Source: Fodinibius sediminis (GTDB lineage: Bacteria; Bacteroidota; Rhodothermia; Balneolales; Balneolaceae). From it: 64,000 bases of DNA. The position numbers were made by a program, and so were the translations under genes. The notes under the pieces are model-generated. The model was not told the origin of the DNA and made no database searches. It was given only the letters and a program-made list of their open reading frames with translations. The stretch spans positions 1-64,000 of the forward strand of contig NZ_FXTH01000018.1 in NCBI RefSeq assembly GCF_900182555.1, written 5' to 3'. Shown here one piece after another: positions 42,105 to 63,440 of the stretch (its first letter is position 1; every line of letters starts with the position of its first letter).

Positions 42105-42863
42105 TTATTGAGACTTCTTAGTAATTTTTACCTTCCATTCCTCGGGCATAGCCAGCAGATATTCCCACTCAAAGGACTCCTCGCTTTCGGCCTCCATCTG
42201 ATAATACAGCGGCTTGGGATCGTGGTCGTTGGTAAACACGAACGCCTGGCCGGGCTCCAGCTCGTCAAAAGCGTCAAAGATCATATCGTGCCGTTTGGCC
42301 GGGGGATGGGGGCGCACATCAAATTTATTTACAACGCTTGCATCATCTGCAGCAATACCGTCACCGGTTTCTTTTTTGGTGATATGGGCGACATATTCAC
42401 CCGGCTCTTCCTTTTTATTTTCCCATTTATATTCGTTGGTGAACTTCTTACTAAAAATGTTCTGGATCTCTTCGAGATTTTCTTCAGCGATCAGTTCCAT
42501 CGTATCTCCTTTCATCATCATGCCGTAGCGGTGGAAAACAATATGCTTCCAGTCGCTTTTATCGGCTTCGCGGAGATCCATCAGGGTTGAAATATCCTCA
42601 AATTCGCGACCCTTAGACTCCTCGGTTCGGGTTACTTTTACCTTCCATTCCTGGCCGCCACGCTGCAGGTATTCCCAGCCCACTACATTCCCGTATATCG
42701 ACCGAAACTCATAATACAGTGGTTTGGGGTCGTGGTCGTTGATGAAAATAAAGCTTTCACCAACAGGCAGATCTTTAAAAAGCTTTAACAGCTTTTCATG
42801 TCTTTTGATGGGGATAAGGTTACGTACGTCCAGTTCCTGAGTTGTGTTAGTTGTATTGCTCAT
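42105..42863 (-). CDS. Protein with two DUF2249 domains
   Basis: A 252-residue protein with two DUF2249 units. The first is DVRNLIPIKRHEKLLKLF through INDHDPKPLYYEF and EWKVKVTR (about 11-80); the second is FDVRPHPPAKRHDMIFDAF through TNDHDPKPLYYQ and EWKVKITKK (about 178-250). The middle (GDTMELIAEENLEEIQ) is less conserved. Single DUF2249 domains are often fused to hemerythrin/RIC-type proteins; another single copy is at 53233. The His of HDPKPL may bind a ligand, but no function is proven. Confidence 0.88.
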   Translation of the reverse strand: MSNTTNTTQELDVRNLIPIKRHEKLLKLFKDLPVGESFIFINDHDPKPLYYEFRSIYGNVVGWEYLQRGGQEWKVKVTRTEESKGREFEDISTLMDLREADKSDWKHIVFHRYGMMMKGDTMELIAEENLEEIQNIFSKKFTNEYKWENKKEEPGEYVAHITKKETGDGIAADDASVVNKFDVRPHPPAKRHDMIFDAFDELEPGQAFVFTNDHDPKPLYYQMEAESEESFEWEYLLAMPEEWKVKITKKSQ

Positions 42864-51214: not shown

Positions 51215-51847
51215 TCAGTCATTGGTTGGAATACTATAAGTGCAAGAGAAATCTCCTTCAGCAATATGAGTGGTTCGCTCAGCCTTATCATTAAATAGCT
51301 TCTTGTAAAACATGGCTTCAAGTTTGCAGGGAAGCCTGGTTTCTTTGACTACTTCACTGAATGGACAATTGCACTCTTTAATGGTGAGTGTTTCACTTTC
51401 TTCATCCATATTAATTTCAGGCATGAACCCTTCTTCTTCCAACATATGTTCTAAAGCCTCAATCCTTGTATCGAAGTCCGTTTCTGAGGATTGATCCATA
51501 CGATGTTGGGCTTTTTCAATTCGATTCTCCCAAAAAGTTTTGAAGAATTCTTTTATCGTTTCATCATCATCTTTTGATTTTAAAAAACTAAGTAATTCTT
51601 TGATGAGAGCTGATTCATAGGAGGGGAATAGGTTATTTCCCTTTTGTGTTAGTTGGTATTCAAGGCTTGGCCGGCCTGGGCCGGATCGTACATAATCGCG
51701 TTCTATATATCCGTCTCGTTCCAGCTGCAGAAAGTGTTCTCGTAATGTGGTTTTTGCTAAATCAGTATTTTCAACCGCTTCATCAATCGAGATGGTACCT
51801 TTTCTCTTAATAAGTTCTAGTAGTTTTTCTTTTGATCCTGTAAACAT
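51215..51847 (-). CDS. SufR-like iron-sulfur transcription regulator
   Basis: A 210-residue regulator. The N-terminal winged helix (about 1-75; TTLREHFLQLERDGYIERDYVRSGPGRPSLEY) is DeoR/ArsR-like. The C-terminal part has ECNCPFSEVVKETRLPC, then a last Cys in DFSCTYSI. SufR family cysteines are C-X12-C-X13-C-X14-C; here C-X12-C is kept, but the next 27 residues hold no Cys before the last, so one ligand seems replaced. The cluster may thus have another ligand or a three-Cys form. It is transcribed with the degenerate RIC gene and may control the divergent ferredoxin operon. Confidence 0.78.
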   Translation of the reverse strand: MFTGSKEKLLELIKRKGTISIDEAVENTDLAKTTLREHFLQLERDGYIERDYVRSGPGRPSLEYQLTQKGNNLFPSYESALIKELLSFLKSKDDDETIKEFFKTFWENRIEKAQHRMDQSSETDFDTRIEALEHMLEEEGFMPEINMDEESETLTIKECNCPFSEVVKETRLPCKLEAMFYKKLFNDKAERTTHIAEGDFSCTYSIPTND

Positions 51848-51876: not shown

Positions 51877-52629
51877 TTATCCCGATTCTAATTTTTGTTT
51901 TACCAATGGAATGAGGTGTTCCCGTTCTATTTCTATCTGTTTTCTCAGCGAAGAAAATAGTGTTTTAACATTGTAATTAAGAATACGAAGTGTTGAACAT
52001 GCATCTTCTGGATTTTTTAATCCCTGTCCTTTTTCTTCAATAGCATCAATTAACTCTAAAATTGTATTTTGGTCGTCCTCGATAATTTCAATTCCACTAT
52101 TCACCTTTTTGATGGTACCATGTAATACTTTCTTTTTTGGGTCTTTTAGGCTTTCAAGAAGAGGAAATAGTTTTTGGCGCTGGAAGTAAAAGTAGTAGTT
52201 TAGCTTCTCTTCCAGTTTATCAAGGTACCACTGCATATTTTTTAGCCACTCGTATTGATTGCCATGTATTTTGTGGACTCGGGGAAAATCGCGGTTAATG
52301 TCATCAAGTAGCTCAGTATTTCTTGTCAGAAAATGTTGTTCCAGATACTTGCACCACTTCTGTAAGTTTTTTCCAAAGTCTGGTGGTTCTTCCTTATCCT
52401 TTGCATTTTTTTGTGCACCATTATGCTGCTGGTTCTTCTTTAGCCATTTTAAGACTTCTACTTCACTCCATTTCTTTTGTTGGCATACCGATCGCAGAGT
52501 TTCGGATTGGTGATTTTTAGGTGATAACCCAATAGAGGAAAGCAATTCTCCAGCGTTTTTTTCAGCACTTACGATTTGCCCTATTGTGGCATCGGGTGTC
52601 ATACCTTTTAGTGAGTGATTATTGCTCAT
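51877..52629 (-). CDS. RIC/ScdA-like protein with most metal ligands lost
   Basis: About 250 residues from the ATG at 52629. A DUF542-like N-terminal domain (TIGQIVSAEKNAGELLSSIGLSP) lacks the CC pair seen in the intact RIC at 60006. The hemerythrin-like part aligns with that protein, but NHH has become QHF, HLQKEE is YFYFQR, EHEHDQS is IEDDQN, and the HVHLEN end is IEIERE; only the His in RVHKIHGNQY is kept. The fold is retained, so a structural, partner-binding or sensing role is more likely than di-iron repair. It starts divergently from the ferredoxin operon. Confidence 0.75.
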   Translation of the reverse strand: MSNNHSLKGMTPDATIGQIVSAEKNAGELLSSIGLSPKNHQSETLRSVCQQKKWSEVEVLKWLKKNQQHNGAQKNAKDKEEPPDFGKNLQKWCKYLEQHFLTRNTELLDDINRDFPRVHKIHGNQYEWLKNMQWYLDKLEEKLNYYFYFQRQKLFPLLESLKDPKKKVLHGTIKKVNSGIEIIEDDQNTILELIDAIEEKGQGLKNPEDACSTLRILNYNVKTLFSSLRKQIEIEREHLIPLVKQKLESG

Positions 52630-52719
52630 GGTTATATGTTTTTTTATCAGATCGACCAATAGGAAAATAGTCATCTGTAACTATTTAATCAATTAAATTG
52701 GTAAAAACCGATTTTATAG

Positions 52720-52750
52720 TTGAAATTAATTTTTCCTACTCCTACCTTTG
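52720..52750 (+). promoter_or_regulatory. Bacteroidota-type promoter of the ferredoxin/cbb3 block
   Basis: TTG at 52720-52722 and TACCTTTG at 52743-52750 with 20 bases between fit the TTG-N17-23-TAnnTTTG promoter consensus. The start codon is 37 bases past the -7 element. This promoter could drive a long operon to about 59.9 kb. Confidence 0.65.
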
Positions 52751-52786: not shown

Positions 52787-53143
52787 ATGGCTTACGTAGT
52801 AACTGACCCATGTATCCAGTGCAAGCACACAAACTGTGCTGCTGTTTGTCCCGTAGATGCCTTTCGGGAAGGGCCCAACTTTTTAGTGATTGATCCCTTT
52901 GAATGCATTGATTGTGATGCGTGTGTAGCCGAATGTCCCGAGGAAGCTATTTATCCTGACGATGAAGTGCCTATGGAGTGGGTAGATTATATCGAACTAA
53001 ACGAGCGGTTGTCCGAAGAATGGATGGATCACGTAATAAATGAAGCAAAGGATGCCCTTCCGGAGGTAGATAAATGGAGCGGTCGCGAAAACAAGCGTGA
53101 GCACTTGATTGAAAGTTGGGAAGAAGCAAAAGCAGTAAAATAG
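52787..53143 (+). CDS. fdxA: FdxA-type 7Fe/8Fe ferredoxin
   Basis: A 118-residue ferredoxin. The N-terminal half has DPCIQCKHTNCAAVCPVDAF with Cys at 9, 12, 17 and 21; the second cluster is CIDCDACVAECPEEAIYPDDEVP with Cys at 40, 43, 46 and 50. This arrangement and the long acidic C-terminal tail (DKWSGRENKREHLIESW) identify the FdxA type with a [3Fe-4S] and a [4Fe-4S] cluster. It is a low-potential electron carrier, often linked to Fe-S assembly or nitrogen-oxide metabolism. It is the first gene of the plus-strand respiration block. Confidence 0.93.
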   Translation: MAYVVTDPCIQCKHTNCAAVCPVDAFREGPNFLVIDPFECIDCDACVAECPEEAIYPDDEVPMEWVDYIELNERLSEEWMDHVINEAKDALPEVDKWSGRENKREHLIESWEEAKAVK

Positions 53144-53232: not shown

Positions 53233-53475
53233 ATGCCTGATACCGTAGAAGAAATCGATGTTCGTAAAATTCCTCCTCATAAAAAGCACGCAACAATTTT
53301 TGATACCTATGACGGGCTTGATGAGGGAGAGGCTTTTATCATCATTAATGACCATGATCCGAAACCTCTGCGTTACCAAATGTCTGCAATGCATGGACAG
53401 GATAGCTTCAGTTGGGATTATCTGGAAGAAGGTCCCGAAGTCTGGAAGGTACATATCGGTAAAAATGCTGAGTAA
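53233..53475 (+). CDS. Single DUF2249 domain protein
   Basis: An 80-residue DUF2249 domain: IDVRKIPPHKKHATIFDTYDGL, then IINDHDPKPLRYQMSAMHGQ and WKVHIGKNAE. It is similar to the two units of the protein at 42105. A second, unrelated frame within it is a shadow. The gene is 3 bases from the MIP18-like gene. The function is not known; co-occurrence with RIC and Fe-S genes suggests a part in Fe-S or NO stress. Confidence 0.87.
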   Translation: MPDTVEEIDVRKIPPHKKHATIFDTYDGLDEGEAFIIINDHDPKPLRYQMSAMHGQDSFSWDYLEEGPEVWKVHIGKNAE

Positions 53476-53478
53476 CAA

Positions 53479-53811
53479 ATGATGGATTATACTTCCATAG
53501 ATCGGCGCAAGATAGCCCGGAAGCTTCGAGAAGTGATTGACCCCGAACTCGGAGTAAACATCGTAGACCTTGGTTTGGTCTACAACATTCTGTATGACGA
53601 TGGCAGAGTGATTGTAGAATTTACGGCTACGACTCCGGGCTGTCCTATGCGTCGTTTTTTGCAACAACAAGTCGAAGAAAAGCTGGCATCCATTGATGAA
53701 ATCAATGAGTATGAAGCCCGCATGGTTTGGGAGCCCGAATGGACCGTAGATATGATCAAAGAGGACGTGGATTTTTTTGCACATCCACCACCTCAGCAAC
53801 GTGTGCAATAA
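53479..53811 (+). CDS. MIP18/SufT family iron-sulfur assembly protein
   Basis: A 110-residue DUF59 (MIP18-like) protein. The conserved strings are VIDPELGVNIVDLGLVYNI, the Cys-containing TTPGCPMRRFLQQQVEEKL and MVWEPEWTVDMIKEDVD. Members such as SufT, PaaD and the eukaryotic CIAO2 help to deliver Fe-S clusters. Its Cys in GCP is the likely functional residue. With ferredoxin upstream and the membrane oxidase genes downstream, a role in maturation is likely. Confidence 0.9.
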   Translation: MMDYTSIDRRKIARKLREVIDPELGVNIVDLGLVYNILYDDGRVIVEFTATTPGCPMRRFLQQQVEEKLASIDEINEYEARMVWEPEWTVDMIKEDVDFFAHPPPQQRVQ

Positions 53812-53828: not shown

Positions 53829-54950
53829 ATGAATAGTAAGGTAAACGTACCGACATATATTTTGGTAGGATTGTTGTTTCTGGCTGCCATCGGTTTATTG
53901 ACGGGATTATATGCTGGTTTAGTCCGATTGGGATTCCTGTCGGAAGTTGATCATGCCGTATCTCCTTTAGCCCATGGGCCACTTATGATTAACGGTTTTT
54001 TAGGTACGCTCATTGGACTGGAACGAGCGGCCGCACTTGACAAGAAATGGGCATTCATCGGTCCCGTTTTTATGGCCGTTTCAACGGTTTTTCTGTTAAC
54101 CGGCTTGCAAGTACTGGGGGAGTGGAGCCTCATATTAGGTTCGGTTGGCCTTGCCGTTGTCATGGGTTTTCTATACTACTTGCAGCCTAAAATTTACCAC
54201 CTGATCATGGCGTTGGGAGCTGGCGCTTTACTGGTTGGTAATCTGTTTTATGTATCTGGGTATCCGATTTATATGCTGGTTGGCTGGTGGGCGGCCTTTC
54301 CCATGCTTACCATTTTTGGCGAACGGCTAGAGCTCAATCGTATCATGCGTCCGCCCAAGCAGGCGCAACAAATATTTGCCGGACTCATTTTAGGGTGGAT
54401 TATAGCATTAATTGTTACACACGTTGATCGTGCCATTGGATGGAGTATAGCTTCGCTGCTGTTAATCGGAGTAGCTGGCTGGTTGATACAATACGATGTA
54501 GCCCGGCGCACGATCAAATCGGTCGAGTGGACCCGCTACAGTGCCATCTGCCTGCTCACGGGCTATGGTTGGCTGATATTGGCAGGACTATTCGGGCTCT
54601 GGTACGGCTTCCCAACCGCGGGTCCAATGTATGACGGACTGCTCCACATAATTTTTGTAGGATTTGTTTTCAGCATGATATTTGCTCACGCTTCGGTCAT
54701 TATTCCTTCATTGTCAGGAAAAATGGTGCCCTGGCACGGGTATTTCTACCTACCCTTGATTTTGCTGCACAGCTTTTTAGCAGTCAGAATTTTTGGTGAC
54801 CTGGTGTTATCCCCGCTTGTCAGAATAATAGGTAGTCACGGTAATGTATTAGCCATTATTCTTTTTCTGGCAGGGGTATTGTATCAGTTGTTATCCAAGG
54901 CATTTGAGAAGAAGAAGTTCAAAATGAAACAGGTTGAAAAATCACACTGA
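53829..54950 (+). CDS. NnrS-like heme-copper membrane protein
   Basis: A 373-residue protein with about 11-12 helices. HGPLMINGFLGTLIGLERAAAL in helix 2-3 and WWAAFPMLTIFGERLELNR are NnrS-related signatures; GLLHIIFVGFVFSMIFAHASVIIP carries more His. NnrS binds heme and copper, and protects cells from NO-derived damage and dinitrosyl iron complexes. It lies 18 bases after the MIP18-like gene and leads to ccoN. The exact role in this subgroup is inferred. Confidence 0.88.
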   Translation: MNSKVNVPTYILVGLLFLAAIGLLTGLYAGLVRLGFLSEVDHAVSPLAHGPLMINGFLGTLIGLERAAALDKKWAFIGPVFMAVSTVFLLTGLQVLGEWSLILGSVGLAVVMGFLYYLQPKIYHLIMALGAGALLVGNLFYVSGYPIYMLVGWWAAFPMLTIFGERLELNRIMRPPKQAQQIFAGLILGWIIALIVTHVDRAIGWSIASLLLIGVAGWLIQYDVARRTIKSVEWTRYSAICLLTGYGWLILAGLFGLWYGFPTAGPMYDGLLHIIFVGFVFSMIFAHASVIIPSLSGKMVPWHGYFYLPLILLHSFLAVRIFGDLVLSPLVRIIGSHGNVLAIILFLAGVLYQLLSKAFEKKKFKMKQVEKSH

Positions 54951-55296: not shown

Positions 55297-56727
55297 ATGA
55301 ATAAACCTTCTGCTGTACTTTCTGTGGAGCGGCCGCTAACGGTCGAAAAAGCAAAAGCCGAGGAGCGCATAGATACATCCCCAGAGTCTGTCAGGCTGAT
55401 ATTTTCCTTTATTGCCTGTTCGGCTTTTTGGCTGGTGTTTGGAACTCTCGTCGGTGAATATCTTGGGCTTAAATTTGTGTGGCCGGAACTCGATACCATC
55501 TCCTGGCTGTCTTTTGGGCGCCTGCGTCCCGTTCATACCAACGTCGTATTCTGGGGATTTTTGTCCCAAGGGATGCTAGCGCTTGCTTTATACGTGGTAC
55601 CGCGCACAAGTCAACGCGAACTGTTTAGCTATCGGTTAGGATGGAGCAGTTTAGGTCTGATGAATCTTTCTGTTGTATTAGGTGTCATTGCTCTAATGGC
55701 TGGTATAAACAATGGCGCGCAGGAATATCGCGAGTTTATCTGGCCGATCTTCGCCCTTTTTGCGTTGGGACTCATACTGGTTGCCTACAATCTGTATAAA
55801 ACCATTGCAGATCGGAATGTGAAAGAAATTTATATCTCCAATTGGTATATCCTTGCGGCCTGCCTTTGGACTATTATTCTTGTATTGGTGGCTTATCTGC
55901 CGGGCTACCAGCAGGATGGAATAAGCCAAACGGTGATTCAGGGCTATTACATGCACCAAGGCGTGGGACAGTGGTTTACGCCTATGGTATTAGGTCTTAC
56001 CTACTACTTCTTGCCCAAATTGTTAAACAGACCTATTTATTCGTACTCACTGGGGGTGCTGGCCTTCTGGACGCAAATGGTGTTTTACACTATGATCGGA
56101 TCGCACCACTTTGTATTTAGTCCTATCCCATGGTGGATTCAAACCGTTGCTATCGTCTTCAGTGTGGGTATGATCGTACCAGTAACAGCCGGTACCGGAA
56201 ACTTCCTGCTGACGATGCGTGGCAAGTGGCGATCCATTGCCCGTAGTTACTCACTGCCGTTTATTCTGGTTGGCGTCATTTTCTATGCCATTGTTTCATA
56301 TCAGGGCACGTTGGAAGCTTTCCGATCTCTTAATAAGGTGTGGCACTTTACCAACTTTACTATTGCCCACTCGCATATGAGCTTGTATGGTTTTGTTGCC
56401 TTCCTGATTTGGGGCGGCGTTTACGGACTTATTCCGCGAATGACCGGCAACGAGCCGCCACAATTTGCCGTCGGAGCTCACTTCTGGTTGGCGCTGATTG
56501 GCGTGTTGGTGTACAGTATTCCATTGATGGTTGGCGGTACGCTGCAGGGACTAAGCTGGATAGCTGGTGAGTCTTTTATCGAGTCCGTCACCTTGATGCA
56601 ACCTTACTGGGTGTGGAGAGCCGTAGGCGGCACGATGATGTTTATCTCACATCTGATATTCGCCTATAACGTCTGGAAGATGCGGCCCGGAAATCGTATT
56701 GAGACAGCTGAATCTACCAATTCATAA
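55297..56727 (+). CDS. ccoN: cbb3-type cytochrome c oxidase subunit I
   Basis: A 476-residue, about 12-helix catalytic subunit. His80 (RPVHTNVVF) binds the low-spin heme with His358; His220 (YMHQGVGQW), His270 and His271 (GSHHFVF) are CuB ligands; His360 (IAHSHMS) binds the high-spin heme. Tyr264, six before the HisHis pair, is at the place of the cross-linked Tyr of C-family oxidases, so this is an O2 reductase rather than a nitric-oxide reductase. The helix-VI string HQGVGQW differs from the common HNAVGF. It is followed by ccoO at 16 bases. Confidence 0.94.
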   Translation: MNKPSAVLSVERPLTVEKAKAEERIDTSPESVRLIFSFIACSAFWLVFGTLVGEYLGLKFVWPELDTISWLSFGRLRPVHTNVVFWGFLSQGMLALALYVVPRTSQRELFSYRLGWSSLGLMNLSVVLGVIALMAGINNGAQEYREFIWPIFALFALGLILVAYNLYKTIADRNVKEIYISNWYILAACLWTIILVLVAYLPGYQQDGISQTVIQGYYMHQGVGQWFTPMVLGLTYYFLPKLLNRPIYSYSLGVLAFWTQMVFYTMIGSHHFVFSPIPWWIQTVAIVFSVGMIVPVTAGTGNFLLTMRGKWRSIARSYSLPFILVGVIFYAIVSYQGTLEAFRSLNKVWHFTNFTIAHSHMSLYGFVAFLIWGGVYGLIPRMTGNEPPQFAVGAHFWLALIGVLVYSIPLMVGGTLQGLSWIAGESFIESVTLMQPYWVWRAVGGTMMFISHLIFAYNVWKMRPGNRIETAESTNS

Positions 56728-56742
56728 ATTATTTAACCTGTC

Positions 56743-57756
56743 ATGAAGCTTAATTTTCACAAAAATCACAAATTACTATTCGGCGTGGTCTTCTGGGGAT
56801 TTGTGTTCCTCAGCTTAATAATAGCGGTATTTCCAGCCCTTTGGGTGCAACAGGAAAATGAACCACTGCCTGCCAGTGAACCGATAACTGAGCTAGAACG
56901 CAAAGGGATGAAAGTATTCATCAATGAAGGTTGTGTGTACTGTCATACCCAGCAGGTTCGTCCGATTGCTATGGATGAAAACTGGGGTCGGCCATCGGCG
57001 CCTGGTGATTATGCACGTATCAACCGTCCCAGCGTTTGGCGACAGACACCGGCCGTTCTGGGCAGTGCTCGAACCGGACCGGATTTAACAAGTATTGGCA
57101 AGCGACAGCCCAGTGCGGTGTGGCATTACATGCACCTGTATAATCCCCGTTCGGTGGTGAAAGAATCTATCATGCCTTCCTACCCGTGGCTATTTAAGAT
57201 TGTTGAAAATCCTTCCAAAGATGCTACCGTCGTTTCTATGCCCGGGGAATATGGCCCATCCAACGGTAAAATTATTGCTACTGAGAAGGCCGAAGCGCTG
57301 GTGGCCTACCTGCAATCGTTAAAGCAGGTATCCATGGATGCTGAAGCATCGGCTGCCCAGAAAGCAAAGGCTGATTCCATTGCAGCTCAGGCTGCCAAAA
57401 AGAAAATAGATGGTGCCACAATTTATGCGAACAACTGTGCCTCTTGTCATCAAAGTGATGGGCAGGGCGTAGAAGGAGTGTTCCCACCCATGGCAGGGGA
57501 TCCGGTAGTGACAGCCGAGGATCCTACGGATCATATTCGAATTGTGCTTTACGGATTACAGGGAGTACCTATCGAAGGAACCGAGTACCAGGGTATCATG
57601 CAGCCGTTCGGCGAAATGATGTCCGACGAAGAAGTGGCTGCGGTTATCAATCACGAACGGACCAGCTGGGGCAATGACGCGCCCACAGTGACAGCCGAAG
57701 ACGTGGCAAAAGTGCGCAATAATGATGAGTTAAATAAAATCCAAGCCGAGGAATAA
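56743..57756 (+). CDS. ccoO: CcoO fused to a second cytochrome c domain
   Basis: A 337-residue protein. One N-terminal membrane anchor (about 12-34) is followed by the monoheme CcoO domain with CVYCHTQQVRP (Cys64, Cys67, His68). An alanine/lysine-rich linker (about 195-222) leads to a second cytochrome c with CASCHQSDGQGVEG (232-240) and ligand Met in the QPFGEMM region. Normal CcoO ends after the first domain, so CcoO has gained a CcoP-like heme domain. This domain is closely similar to that of the protein at 57995, sharing EVAA(V/I)INHERTSWGND near its end. Confidence 0.93.
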   Translation: MKLNFHKNHKLLFGVVFWGFVFLSLIIAVFPALWVQQENEPLPASEPITELERKGMKVFINEGCVYCHTQQVRPIAMDENWGRPSAPGDYARINRPSVWRQTPAVLGSARTGPDLTSIGKRQPSAVWHYMHLYNPRSVVKESIMPSYPWLFKIVENPSKDATVVSMPGEYGPSNGKIIATEKAEALVAYLQSLKQVSMDAEASAAQKAKADSIAAQAAKKKIDGATIYANNCASCHQSDGQGVEGVFPPMAGDPVVTAEDPTDHIRIVLYGLQGVPIEGTEYQGIMQPFGEMMSDEEVAAVINHERTSWGNDAPTVTAEDVAKVRNNDELNKIQAEE

Positions 57757-57758
57757 TC

Positions 57759-57983
57759 ATGTTATCACTGTTTTTGACATTCATTCAACAGATCTCGGAA
57801 TTCTCCACTTCCAGCGAAGGACGAGAATATGCCCCGCCTGATGGTCCCCTTTATTACCTGGTGCTTATAGGGTCATCGATCATTGTTTTGGGGGTGGTAT
57901 TTTTTACGATTAAGTGGTTCATCTGGCCGGGCGAACAATCCGAAGATCATATTAAACGAACGATTTTAAAAGACGAATCTTAA
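57759..57983 (+). CDS. Small membrane subunit (CcoQ-like position)
   Basis: A 74-residue protein with one membrane helix (about 29-50, YYLVLIGSSIIVLGVVFFTIKWF) and a charged C-terminus. The position between ccoO and a cytochrome c protein is that of CcoQ/CcoS or of an auxiliary oxidase subunit, but the sequence itself shows no clear family. The ATG is 2 bases after the ccoO stop, so translation is coupled. Confidence 0.8.
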   Translation: MLSLFLTFIQQISEFSTSSEGREYAPPDGPLYYLVLIGSSIIVLGVVFFTIKWFIWPGEQSEDHIKRTILKDES

Positions 57984-57994
57984 CAACGAGCATA

Positions 57995-58822
57995 ATGTCT
58001 GAAGACAATAGTAACTTGATTCATGTGTACCTCGATGATGGGGATGAACCCATCGTTTCTTATCGACCTCCGGTGCGGTTTGAGCTGGATACGACCCAAC
58101 TGGAGGATGGCCCACATAAGCTGAAAGTAGTGGCTACCGATGCCAGCGGTCACAAAGGAGTTCGCACGATCCCCTTTGAGGTAAGAAATGGGCCCGGGAT
58201 TGATGTGGAAGGTCTGCAAGACAATGACATGCTCGAAGGGAAAGTCCCCATACTGCTGAATGCGTATGGTGGGGCCAAAGAACCCTTTTGGGAGCCATCC
58301 CGGGCCGAAACCCCAGCGCCGGTCCCAACCTGGGCATGGGTGTTACTTCTGGTCGTGGTAGCCTGGAGCGCATTTTATATTGCCCAGCAGTGGAATGTGC
58401 CGGACGAATATGCAAGTTCACCTACATACAGCTTCTTTACCGGTAAGGGTGATAATGCACAATCTACCGGACAGGCACCACCACCCTCCAAAGCAAATAT
58501 TGGAGCAACCTTGTACCGCACGAGCTGTGCAAGTTGTCATCAGGGGAATGGGGAAGGTGTTCCTGGGGCATTTCCGCCACTATCGGATGACCCTGTGGTA
58601 ACAGCGGAGGATCCGACCCGGCATATTGAAATTATTTTGTTTGGGATGCAGGGAAAATCTATAGACGGCGTAGAGTATTCTGCCGCGATGCCGCCTTTTT
58701 CCGAGCAACTCTCTGATGAGGAAGTGGCGGCTATTATCAATCACGAACGTACAAGCTGGGGTAATGATGCCCCGACTGTTACGGCTGAGCAGGTGCAAAA
58801 AGTGCGAGCACAGAGAAATTAG
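57995..58822 (+). CDS. Ig-like/TM/cytochrome c protein (CcoP analogue)
   Basis: A 275-residue protein. Residues 1-100 form a beta-sandwich (VRFELDTTQLEDGPHKLKVV) resembling Ig-like or cytochrome-associated FixH-type domains and are predicted cytoplasmic. One helix (about 113-130) is next, then a periplasmic cytochrome c domain with TSCASCHQGNGEG (Cys178, Cys181, His182) and a Met in AAMPPFSEQ. No diheme CcoP is found in this cluster, so it may substitute. Its heme domain is a close paralog of the extra domain of CcoO. The gene begins 11 bases after the small membrane protein. Confidence 0.88.
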   Translation: MSEDNSNLIHVYLDDGDEPIVSYRPPVRFELDTTQLEDGPHKLKVVATDASGHKGVRTIPFEVRNGPGIDVEGLQDNDMLEGKVPILLNAYGGAKEPFWEPSRAETPAPVPTWAWVLLLVVVAWSAFYIAQQWNVPDEYASSPTYSFFTGKGDNAQSTGQAPPPSKANIGATLYRTSCASCHQGNGEGVPGAFPPLSDDPVVTAEDPTRHIEIILFGMQGKSIDGVEYSAAMPPFSEQLSDEEVAAIINHERTSWGNDAPTVTAEQVQKVRAQRN

Positions 58823-60005: not shown

Positions 60006-60728
60006 ATGCAAAAAGAAAAAGCTCGTACCATTGGTCAGATAGTAGCGGATAATTATCAGGCAGCGGAGGTATTTAATGCATTTGATATGGATTTTTGCTG
60101 TGGTGGAGATCGTACCGTAGATGAAGCATGTCAAGAAGTCAATATCAATCCCAATGAAGTGTGGCAAGCCTTGAAGGAATTAGAAACAGATGGTGCAAGA
60201 CAGGAAAACTATACCGAATGGTCTCTGGATTTTCTTATTGATTATATTATTAACAACCACCACAAGTTTTCGCGGGAAAAGTTACCTGAAATAGGTCAGT
60301 ATGCAAAGAAGGTTGCCAGCGTGCATGGCGACCGATATCCTGAATTGCAGAAAATATACTACGAATTCACAAAGTTGCACGGGGATATAATCAACCATCT
60401 TCAAAAAGAAGAAGAGCTTTTGTTTCCCTACGTGAAACGGCTTGTTGAAGCGGAGAAAAAAGGTAAACAGCCGAAAACGCCCGACTTTGGCAAGGCAGCC
60501 AATCCCATTTCTATGATGGAGCATGAGCATGATCAATCTGGGGCAGCTATGGAAAAGATTCGAGAGCTAAGTGATGATTTTACGCCCCCGGACGATGCCT
60601 GCACTACGTATCGACTATTGTTTGAAAATCTGGAAGCTTTTGAAAAAGATCTGCACAAGCATGTGCACTTGGAAAATAACATCCTGTTTCCCAAAGCAAT
60701 TGAATTAGAGCAATCCTTGAATCGGTAA
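60006..60728 (+). CDS. RIC family iron-sulfur repair protein (ScdA/YtfE/DnrN)
   Basis: A 240-residue di-iron protein that repairs Fe-S clusters damaged by NO or peroxide. The ScdA N-terminal domain has FDMDFCCGGDRTVDEAC (Cys31, Cys32). The hemerythrin-like four-helix part has NHHKFSREKL (85-86), VHGDRYPEL (107), HLQKEEELLFP (131-136), MEHEHDQSG (173-175) and HKHVHLENNILFP (219-223), so the di-iron ligands are complete. The degenerate paralog at 51877 aligns along the whole length. The gene starts after a terminator, 32 bases past it. Confidence 0.95.
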   Translation: MQKEKARTIGQIVADNYQAAEVFNAFDMDFCCGGDRTVDEACQEVNINPNEVWQALKELETDGARQENYTEWSLDFLIDYIINNHHKFSREKLPEIGQYAKKVASVHGDRYPELQKIYYEFTKLHGDIINHLQKEEELLFPYVKRLVEAEKKGKQPKTPDFGKAANPISMMEHEHDQSGAAMEKIRELSDDFTPPDDACTTYRLLFENLEAFEKDLHKHVHLENNILFPKAIELEQSLNR

Positions 60729-62369: not shown

Positions 62370-62585
62370 ATGCTAATGAAGCAACCTATTACGGGCTTTC
62401 ACAAAGATGAAGAAGGCGACTGGGTGGCCGAGCTGGAATGCGGCCATAATCAGCATGTACGACATGACCCGCCCTGGCAGCTTCGCCCTTGGGTAACAAC
62501 AAAAAAGCGACGGGAAAGTCGCATTGGTCATCAGCTGGATTGTAAAAAGTGTGATCGCGGAGAACCCAAAGACAACATGGTATAA
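62370..62585 (+). CDS. DUF3565 family protein
   Basis: A 71-residue DUF3565 protein. The conserved core is GDWVAELECGHNQHVRHDPPWQLRPWV, with the end IGHQLDCKKCD. Cys and His in ECGHNQHVRH and DCKKCD could bind a metal such as zinc. The function is unknown. The stop (TAA) overlaps the next gene's ATG region by one base, so they are coupled. A second in-frame ATG follows two codons in. Confidence 0.9.
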   Translation: MLMKQPITGFHKDEEGDWVAELECGHNQHVRHDPPWQLRPWVTTKKRRESRIGHQLDCKKCDRGEPKDNMV

Positions 62586-63031
62586 TGCCAAGAATTGCGC
62601 GGACATTTATCAAAACAGGAATGGTCTTTTTTCTGATATCTCTCTTGTTGGGGATAGCAGTAGAAATTGAATCACTGAGTCTGCCAGTTTTAATGCCTCT
62701 GTTCTGGCATACGCTAATGGTTGGCTGGATTACCCAAATTATCTTCGGGGTTTCCATGTGGATGTTTCCGGGCCGAACCAAAGAAGAAGGATTCAAGGCC
62801 CAACTCTGGGGCTGGCTCACCTATATATTTTTGAATACTGGACTGGTGCTTCGCCTTGTCGCCGAACCGATGCTGTCGTACTCCGAATTAACTATTTGGA
62901 ATCTTTTGGTGCTAGGCTCTGCAGTATTACAAGTATCCGGCGGATTTACCTATCTCACTGAAATGTGGCCACGTATTATGTCGAAAGAACAACGTCGCCA
63001 AAAACGCAAGAAAAAGCGAAGAAAACAGTAG
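62585..63031 (+). CDS. Four-helix membrane protein, HCO/NnrS-like module 1
   Basis: A 148-residue protein with four helices (about 9-28, 36-60, 72-90, 100-125) and a basic C-terminal tail (KEQRRQKRKKKRRK). Helix 2 has LFWHTLMVGWITQIIFGVSMWMFPG, resembling the helix-II region of cbb3 subunit I (PVHTNVVFWGFLSQG). It thus has one His that may bind heme. It is overlapped by the preceding gene and is followed by a paralog 1 base after its stop. Known family uncertain; possibly a half-size NnrS relative. Confidence 0.7.
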   Translation: MPRIARTFIKTGMVFFLISLLLGIAVEIESLSLPVLMPLFWHTLMVGWITQIIFGVSMWMFPGRTKEEGFKAQLWGWLTYIFLNTGLVLRLVAEPMLSYSELTIWNLLVLGSAVLQVSGGFTYLTEMWPRIMSKEQRRQKRKKKRRKQ

Positions 63032-63032
63032 T

Positions 63033-63440
63033 ATGCCTGCTCCAAGCCGCTGGTTAATTCGTTCTGCCTACACCTGTCTTCTTGTTGGGATGATCGTCGG
63101 AGCTGTTATGTTAGTGCATAAAGCATATCCTTTGCACCCGGCCATTTGGTCGCTTTTGCCTGTTCATATAGAGCTGTTGGTTGTTGGATGGATAGTACAG
63201 TTTACCATGGGAACAGCATACTGGATTTTACCACGCTATTTAAAGGATTCATCCCGCGGTAACGCCCGATTGGCCCGATTGATGTTCCTGCTATTGAATA
63301 TTGGGATTGTTGTAGTAATTGCTGATCGGCTTATAGTTTCGACCTTACCTTTAGCGATAATGGGAAGGCTTTGTGAAGTAGCTGCCGTGGTACTGTTTAT
63401 TAGTCTGCATTGGCAACGGATTGTTACATATAATAATTAA
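63033..63440 (+). CDS. Four-helix membrane protein, HCO/NnrS-like module 2
   Basis: A 135-residue paralog of the preceding protein. Helix 2 reads LLPVHIELLVVGWIVQFTMGTAYWILPRYL, where PVH...GW..Q...G....PR is shared with module 1 and with CcoN (PVHTNVVFWGFLSQG...YVVPR). The remaining helices are at about 8-28, 72-92 and 102-122. The tandem may form a hetero-oligomer around a heme. No partner subunit or signal sequence is seen. Function unknown. Confidence 0.72.
   Translation: MPAPSRWLIRSAYTCLLVGMIVGAVMLVHKAYPLHPAIWSLLPVHIELLVVGWIVQFTMGTAYWILPRYLKDSSRGNARLARLMFLLLNIGIVVVIADRLIVSTLPLAIMGRLCEVAAVVLFISLHWQRIVTYNN

Follow-up and report, generated by a model that had tools for sequence, protein, structure and literature searches.

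A RIC paralog stripped of most di-iron ligands and paired with a SufR-like regulator in Balneolaceae: a candidate metal-independent accessory of a putative Fe-S repressor

In the genome of Fodinibius sediminis, a second RIC copy without most of its iron-holding parts (here RICd) lies directly beside the gene of a SufR-like regulator (SufRl), and nearly all of its relatives occupy the same position. On these grounds we read RICd as a dedicated helper, a RIC paralog that came to assist a SufR-like Fe-S repressor without the use of metal; this is our leading interpretation, held tentatively and at slightly less than even probability. On this reading, a repair enzyme of the salt-loving Balneolaceae would have become the helper of a gene switch. 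The window, meaning the whole analysed stretch of 64,000 nucleotides of contig NZ_FXTH01000018.1, contains the following features:

51215..51847, minus strand: SufRl, SufR-like winged-helix regulator, directly downstream of RICd
51877-52629, minus strand: RICd, within an ORF of 51877-52674, starting at the ATG at 52629
52690..52716: likely SufRl operator, an imperfect AAAACGGT-N4-ACCGTTTT palindrome between the RICd-sufRl and the divergent fdxA operons
52720..52750, plus strand: possible fdxA promoter, TTG at 52720 and TACCTTTG at 52743-52750
52787..53143, plus strand: FdxA-type ferredoxin, whose gene opens the divergent operon (128.9 bits for NF045490, slightly under the cut-off of 135)
53233..53475, plus strand: DUF2249 protein (PF10006, 95.8 bits)
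53479..53811, plus strand: SufT/MIP18-like Fe-S assembly protein (PF01883, 66.9 bits; TIGR02945, 82 bits, below cut-off)
53829..54950, plus strand: TM373, a 373-aa membrane protein (matching no Pfam or NCBIfam entry)
60006..60728, plus strand: intact RIC with CysCys and six di-iron ligands, used for comparison (252.9 bits for TIGR03652, above its cut-off)

The start at 52629 matches the starts of the orthologues (MSNNHSL), the closest of which (88%) is from Fodinibius roseus DSM 21986. That RICd is a RIC homologue, as the initial annotation proposed, was confirmed by BLASTP, by a match to TIGR03652 and by its best PDB matches, YtfE and ScdA. BLASTP aligned it to the intact RIC with 53/230 identities (23%, E=1e-15), the N-domain lying within the aligned 230 residues. 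Its TIGR03652 score of 63 bits is below the curated cut-off of 204.7, as is its Pfam Hemerythrin score (21 bits, cut-off 25.3), and ScdA_N (PF04405) gave no match at E up to 1 in RICd and 75.3 bits in the intact RIC. An AlphaFold2 model from an alignment of 12 sequences (pLDDT 86, pTM 0.85) retrieved only YtfE/ScdA structures from the PDB at E up to 0.001 in Foldseek (12/12 matches), the first seven aligning 237-241 columns of the model to YtfE. VIA-align superposed the bundle on ScdA 9r7j (Z 20.7, rmsd 1.9, 158 residues), a comparison that barely tested the N-domain, and the best chain other than YtfE or ScdA was a designed protein (Z 14.4). As modelled, RICd thus has the RIC fold, with an ScdA_N-type domain and a hemerythrin-like bundle of RIC topology.

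In YtfE, H84 and H204 are ligands of Fe1 and H129 and H160 of Fe2, E133 and E208 are bridging, and H105 is listed as conserved (PMC9268430). At H84, H129, E133, H160, H204 and E208 the RICd of the window has L, Y, Q, Q, Q and E, the placement of H84 being the same by BLASTP, MAFFT and profile alignment to YtfE. Hence five of the six di-iron ligands and all four iron-binding His are gone, the pair C30 C31 is replaced by K N, and E208 and H105 remain; the earlier statement that nearly all metal ligands and the CysCys pair are replaced holds, and "all" would be wrong. Orthologues that share these losses were found in a MAFFT alignment, which, together with the low dN/dS given below, makes chance a very unlikely source of these losses. 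Among 28 full-length RICd rows, the numbers retaining each residue were C30 0, C31 0, H84 12, H129 6, E133 15, H160 4, H204 6, E208 23 and H105 26 (ORFs under 200 aa and identical duplicates were removed, namely the pieces of the G024 gene, the G164 remnant and a contig-end RIC piece). All six ligands together occur in 0/28 RICd rows, which hold between 0 and 5, versus 24/25 RIC rows, and CysCys, present in 25/25 RIC rows, is absent from 28/28 RICd rows. The third conserved N-domain Cys is present in 28/28 RICd rows and the ACtt Cys in 24/28. The sole RIC row without all six ligands is a second, tandem RIC after sufRl in a genome of another family (L123:13179-15357, genome G052, family f3), where H204 is Ile, which may mark a separate beginning of such a loss. 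Elsewhere in other families, RIC-like matches (E 1e-15 to 1e-24) had their ligands checked near sufRl, and there 13/14 RICs from outside Balneolaceae have all six, against 0/28 for RICd.

The RICd family comprises 30 genes in 24 genomes of Balneolaceae (Balneolota), these being 11 of the 12 searched genomes of the window's genus and 13 others of Balneolaceae. Across 395 genomes drawn from the phylum, profile matches at E up to 1e-30 fell in Balneolaceae only, and a single scan of viral contigs with the window's RICd found no relative. TIGR03652 scores in 25 genomes were bimodal, with 27 RICs at 229-262 bits and 28 RICd at 28-112 bits, plus one contig-end fragment of 28.8 bits in genome G018; at E 1e-5 the profile left 2/30 RICd unmatched (G003 C29 and the G164 remnant). 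A RIC over the cut-off accompanies RICd in 23/24 genomes. In the tree, RICd is set apart by a branch that has 100/100 support and recurs in 100% of 200 bootstrap trees; since two long branches meet there, the tree cannot tell which RIC gave rise to RICd. In 6/6 computable pairs dN/dS was 0.136-0.172 (dS exceeding 1 in some of them, a seventh pair being saturated in dS), so that, judged by substitution patterns, the family is under purifying selection, and the "decoy" role that the initial annotation had considered is not favoured. For the same pairs, SufRl gave 0.030-0.075, the RICd values being ~2-6 times higher.

In 28/30 cases RICd immediately precedes sufRl, both being on one strand, with a 29-nt gap in the window. 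The two departures are the RICd of G018, a 71% complete MAG in which other genes adjoin it, and one of three copies in genome G318; in G318 a RICd-like gene lies ~7 kb from a RICd-sufRl pair, with no recognisable operator (L096:17678-18430). Conversely, one sufRl of genome G022 has no RICd on its contig; this sufRl carries an operator of its own, and a DUF3565-like gene lies on the opposite side (L127:4415-5526, contig C97). Intact RIC also occurs near sufRl: in family f3, which belongs to the same order, intact RIC follows sufRl in 6/6 loci, and in the more distant families f6 and f12 RIC was found in 7/12 fetched sufRl loci, intact in 7/7.

On the other side of RICd, fdxA is divergent in 18 loci among the first 21; in 3/8 later loci it is found on that side at a greater distance. 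Its possible promoter is presumably the Bacteroidota-type -33/-7 motif, and similar stretches are visible in upstream regions of other loci. DUF2249 proteins and the TM373 family, which we take to be NnrS-like by resemblance only, each occur in 19/29 RICd loci, and a nirK-like cluster, whose representative matches TIGR02376 below the cut-off, in 14/29. By gene content, the nirK-like genes, together with azurin-like, globin-like and perhaps NnrS-like genes nearby, point to NO physiology. The window also encodes a protein with three DUF2249 stretches (42105-42863) and a cbb3-like oxidase set (55297-58822; subunit I at 282 bits versus a ccoN cut-off of 583), the latter closely following fdxA in five loci, the window included. 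Two small proteins of 148 and 135 aa, membrane-like by eye, are encoded at 62585-63440 and are also found near the sufRl/fdxA clusters of families f6 and f12. The window's genome holds a second RICd-sufRl/fdxA divergon (G000:C3:218022-219529, locus L047), with OsmC, azurin-like, globin-like and intact RIC genes as neighbours; erosion of this second RICd has gone further, to the loss of H105 and the ACtt Cys, while the SufRl beside it has an intact Cys motif and the operator has 0 mismatches.

The upstream regions of RICd genes have in common a 27-bp element around TAAAAACGGTnnnnACCGTTTTTATTG, of which the window carries an imperfect copy, TAAAATCGGTTTTTACCAATTTAATTG, at 52690-52716; we infer that SufRl binds there. 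A matrix built from 26/28 RICd upstream regions (two with weak matches omitted) was scanned over 50 loci and 927 kb, with one plain shuffle of each locus as control (maximum 5.4 bits). A site of 24-44 bits lay at RICd, sufRl or fdxA in 36/50 loci, ten of which had contributed nothing to the matrix, including 6/6 f3 loci (28-36 bits), where the palindrome precedes sufRl and RIC is intact. Stray matches of 8-11 bits occurred in four of these 36 loci (L037, L045, L047, L048), and no site of at least 8 bits was found in the other 14 (L101-L112, L128, L129), twelve of which, L101-L112, surround intact RIC genes away from sufRl. In the window the operator scores 36.8, versus -0.4 for the best position elsewhere and a maximum of 12.5 over 20 Markov windows. 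RICd and fdxA are no longer on one site in 3/3 g4 loci, fdxA having its own of 18.9, 26.3 and 27.4 bits. In the distant families f6 and f12 the matrix gave only partial sites, of 7-23 bits, in 6/12 loci and nothing of 5 bits or more in the other six.

At the level of genomes, in a tally made by hand over 58, sites with at most two mismatches were present in 23/23 that have sufRl (E up to 1e-50) and in 2/35 others, namely G018, at its RICd, and G025; two of these 35 have a weak sufRl match of 26-29%. A reversed-pattern control in the same scan gave 16 matches at up to three mismatches, so sites with three mismatches are background, and a phylum-wide pattern scan was noisy, with 58/395 genomes at up to two mismatches and scattered control matches. 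A broad SufRl regulon in the window's genome was considered and rejected: sites with at most two mismatches lie only at the two RICd/fdxA regions, which makes the regulon look local. One further site there has three mismatches and lies near a gene that we take to be EnvC-like.

SufRl itself scores 76.5 bits against TIGR02702 (SufR), below the cut-off of 178.8, and matches Pfam HTH families over their cut-offs. Its Cys residues, C159-x-C161-x12-C174-x27-C202, form a motif found in 35/35 homologues over 40% identity, the set to which the count was confined. The structural model is weak overall (pLDDT 65, pTM 0.39), with residues 11-50 at 81-87 and residues 159-174 below 50. None of the neighbours labelled in the window is a suf operon. 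SufR of M. tuberculosis is said, in a paper's title, to respond to NO. Ser variants of its C203, C216 and C244 fail to complement (PMC6034842). SufRl has the same spacings, 13 and 28. With a winged helix and three Cys so spaced, SufRl looks on sequence grounds like a SufR-like Fe-S regulator; it would carry a cluster, sense NO and act as a repressor, and is probably an NO-sensing Fe-S switch. Its predicted palindrome, conserved upstream as ACGGT-N4-ACCGT, differs from the cyanobacterial SufR site, CAAC-N6-GTTG (PMC8593673).

Mean identity in the N-domain and Hr-domain was 0.43 and 0.35 across the 28 RICd, versus 0.48 and 0.57 across 25 RIC, and 0.55 and 0.42 in the 20 RICd rows that remain without the early or aberrant L093-L099; in these alignments, the constraint on RICd is shifted from the iron bundle to the ScdA_N-type domain. 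Three N-domain residues, Gly 49, Cys 64 and Glu 71 (265-aa ORF numbering), are invariant in 28/28. We then compared evolutionary distances among five genes in 14 of the first 21 loci, dropping seven that miss one of the five, with L093-L100 outside the set. RICd distances covaried most strongly with those of SufRl (partial r 0.68, permutation p 0.001), followed by FdxA (0.46, p 0.001), TM373 (0.26, p 0.020) and SufT (0.09, p 0.258); of the other gene pairs only TM373-SufT was notable (0.55). Pairs of loci are not independent, so the covariation is support and not proof.

Combined, these results lead us to the following model. SufRl with a [4Fe-4S] cluster would bind 52690-52716 and repress both RICd-sufRl and fdxA-DUF2249-sufT-(NnrS-like), and NO or iron loss would destroy the cluster, such that both operons are switched on. 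Working chiefly by way of its ScdA_N-type domain, RICd would then act on SufRl, holding the apo form or passing it to FdxA/SufT, and would thereby set the speed at which SufRl repression returns. Di-iron chemistry would be left to the intact RIC present in nearly every such genome, with RICd holding or re-arming SufRl and the chemistry falling to intact RIC, FdxA and SufT. The suggestion of a regulator partner in the initial annotation thus gains from the pairing, the common operator, the N-domain shift and the rate covariation; direct RICd-SufRl contact and the direction of its effect are predictions of the model. Several observations weigh against the partner model: RICd evolves ~2-6 times faster than SufRl, two RICd lie away from sufRl and one sufRl of G022 is without RICd on its contig, some copies are broken or eroded, 6/28 RICd rows retain three of the four His and may bind metal, and genes of one operon could covary without contact, the more so as RICd also covaries with FdxA. 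A bolder form, in which a di-iron protein within a conserved gene cluster for NO response became stepwise a metal-free "pseudo-RIC" that binds a [4Fe-4S] repressor and sets recovery after NO, is possible, and we hold it with somewhat more reserve; relatives of RICd retain 5, 4, 3, 2, 1 and 0 of the six ligands.

The covariation and the shared operator also bear on the possibility that RICd is an ordinary target of the regulon, an iron-less chaperone or scaffold that serves damaged Fe-S proteins in general and makes no particular contact with SufRl. The operator region is common with fdxA-DUF2249-sufT, whose products have plausible Fe-S repair functions, and the covariation with FdxA is clear, yet it is SufRl, and neither SufT nor TM373, that RICd nearly always adjoins and covaries with most strongly, and we consider this account rather unlikely.

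It is less likely still that RICd is a DNA-binding or co-repressor protein acting at the operator with SufRl, by analogy with RIC2 of Trichomonas vaginalis (PMC9268430). The window's RICd is basic (pI 8.9 on the 265-aa ORF, versus 5.1 for the intact RIC), and the family median is 7.4 versus 5.3 for RIC; however, pI spans 5.0-9.7 across the family, for which reason we rejected a conserved basic charge, Pfam finds no extra domain in RICd, and the twelve Foldseek matches are all YtfE/ScdA.

A retained metal function is improbable to a similar degree. RICd might bind metal at a mononuclear or remodelled site formed by H105, D159, E208 and nearby residues, with a function in iron or NO; H105 and E208 are kept in 26/28 and 23/28 rows, Asp stands at position 159 in 28/28 RICd versus 8/25 RIC, and the acidic residues common to RICd are this Asp (in the place of E159), E208 and two N-domain Glu. 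Moreover, 7/28 rows, from the g4, g18, G018 and G022 lines, retain 4-5 of the six ligands, so that loss is incomplete in these lines and some members may bind metal. Against this, 14/28 rows, the window's copy among them, have none of the four iron-binding His (three are retained in 6/28), and among the 28 rows no additional His or Cys reaches 75% conservation. The refuting case envisaged in the initial annotation, ligands kept at other sites, thus finds no new conserved His or Cys in its favour.

Decay towards a functionless pseudogene, to which the frameshifts that break the G024 gene (which could be MAG errors), the 104-aa G164 remnant without N-domain and the second copy in the window's genome that is also minus H105 and the ACtt Cys would point, is very improbable given dN/dS of 0.136-0.172 in 6/6 computable pairs and 28 full-length genes with an invariant N-domain Gly, Cys and Glu.

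The dedicated-accessory reading bears on a question that is unsettled for RIC as a whole, which has been seen as an iron donor (PMC9268430) and as a nitrite reductase (PMC12412097), and whose mechanism has been called "unknown" (PMC8593673). RICd separates a scaffold role from the iron role, and its near-constant neighbour SufRl, a probable Fe-S NO sensor, is the first candidate for its target. If the pseudo-RIC model is true, dedicated partners of Fe-S transcription factors would gain a new class in RICd. SufRl, with its defined palindrome, is in turn a candidate NO/Fe-S regulator of Balneolota; a limited literature search returned no paper on such a regulator there.

Set beside known systems, RICd shares its fold and the third N-domain Cys with RIC/YtfE/ScdA/DnrN (TIGR03652), and differs in having no CysCys, never six ligands and TIGR03652 scores of 28-112 bits. 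The initial annotation knew of no described function; a limited literature search likewise returned no account of a bacterial RIC without metal or of RIC paired with a SufR-like regulator, but two precedents qualify that statement. The first, T. vaginalis RIC2, is a RIC paralog beside an intact RIC that was isolated without a di-iron centre, and in this it resembles RICd, so far as its published description allows comparison (PMC9268430); it differs in being eukaryotic, with a signal peptide, a leucine zipper and reported DNA binding (PMC9268430). By analogy, a RIC without a di-iron centre can take a DNA-related role (PMC9268430).

The second is nsrR-nsrS-nsrT of Thermus thermophilus. RIC genes often neighbour NsrR-type regulators (PMC5748679), which means that the mere proximity of RIC to an Fe-S regulator is already known. 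In Thermus, the gene of an ScdA-domain protein, NsrS, adjoins that of NsrR, an Fe-S regulator of NO genes, and one palindrome type stands upstream of each (PMC5748679). The Thermus regulator is of Rrf2 type and NsrS is a 65-aa protein with DfCCgG (PMC5748679), whereas the window has a SufR-like regulator and a full-length RICd without CysCys. According to the same source, addition of NsrS or NsrT left DNA binding by NsrR unchanged, a result that weighs against our partner model, although its authors propose that the ScdA-domain protein repairs the NsrR cluster (PMC5748679). On the regulator side, SufR and ArnR resemble SufRl in combining a winged helix with a C-terminal three-Cys cluster site, and ArnR, a [4Fe-4S] regulator with three Cys, loses DNA binding upon exposure to NO (PMC12343034), the behaviour that our model would assign to SufRl.
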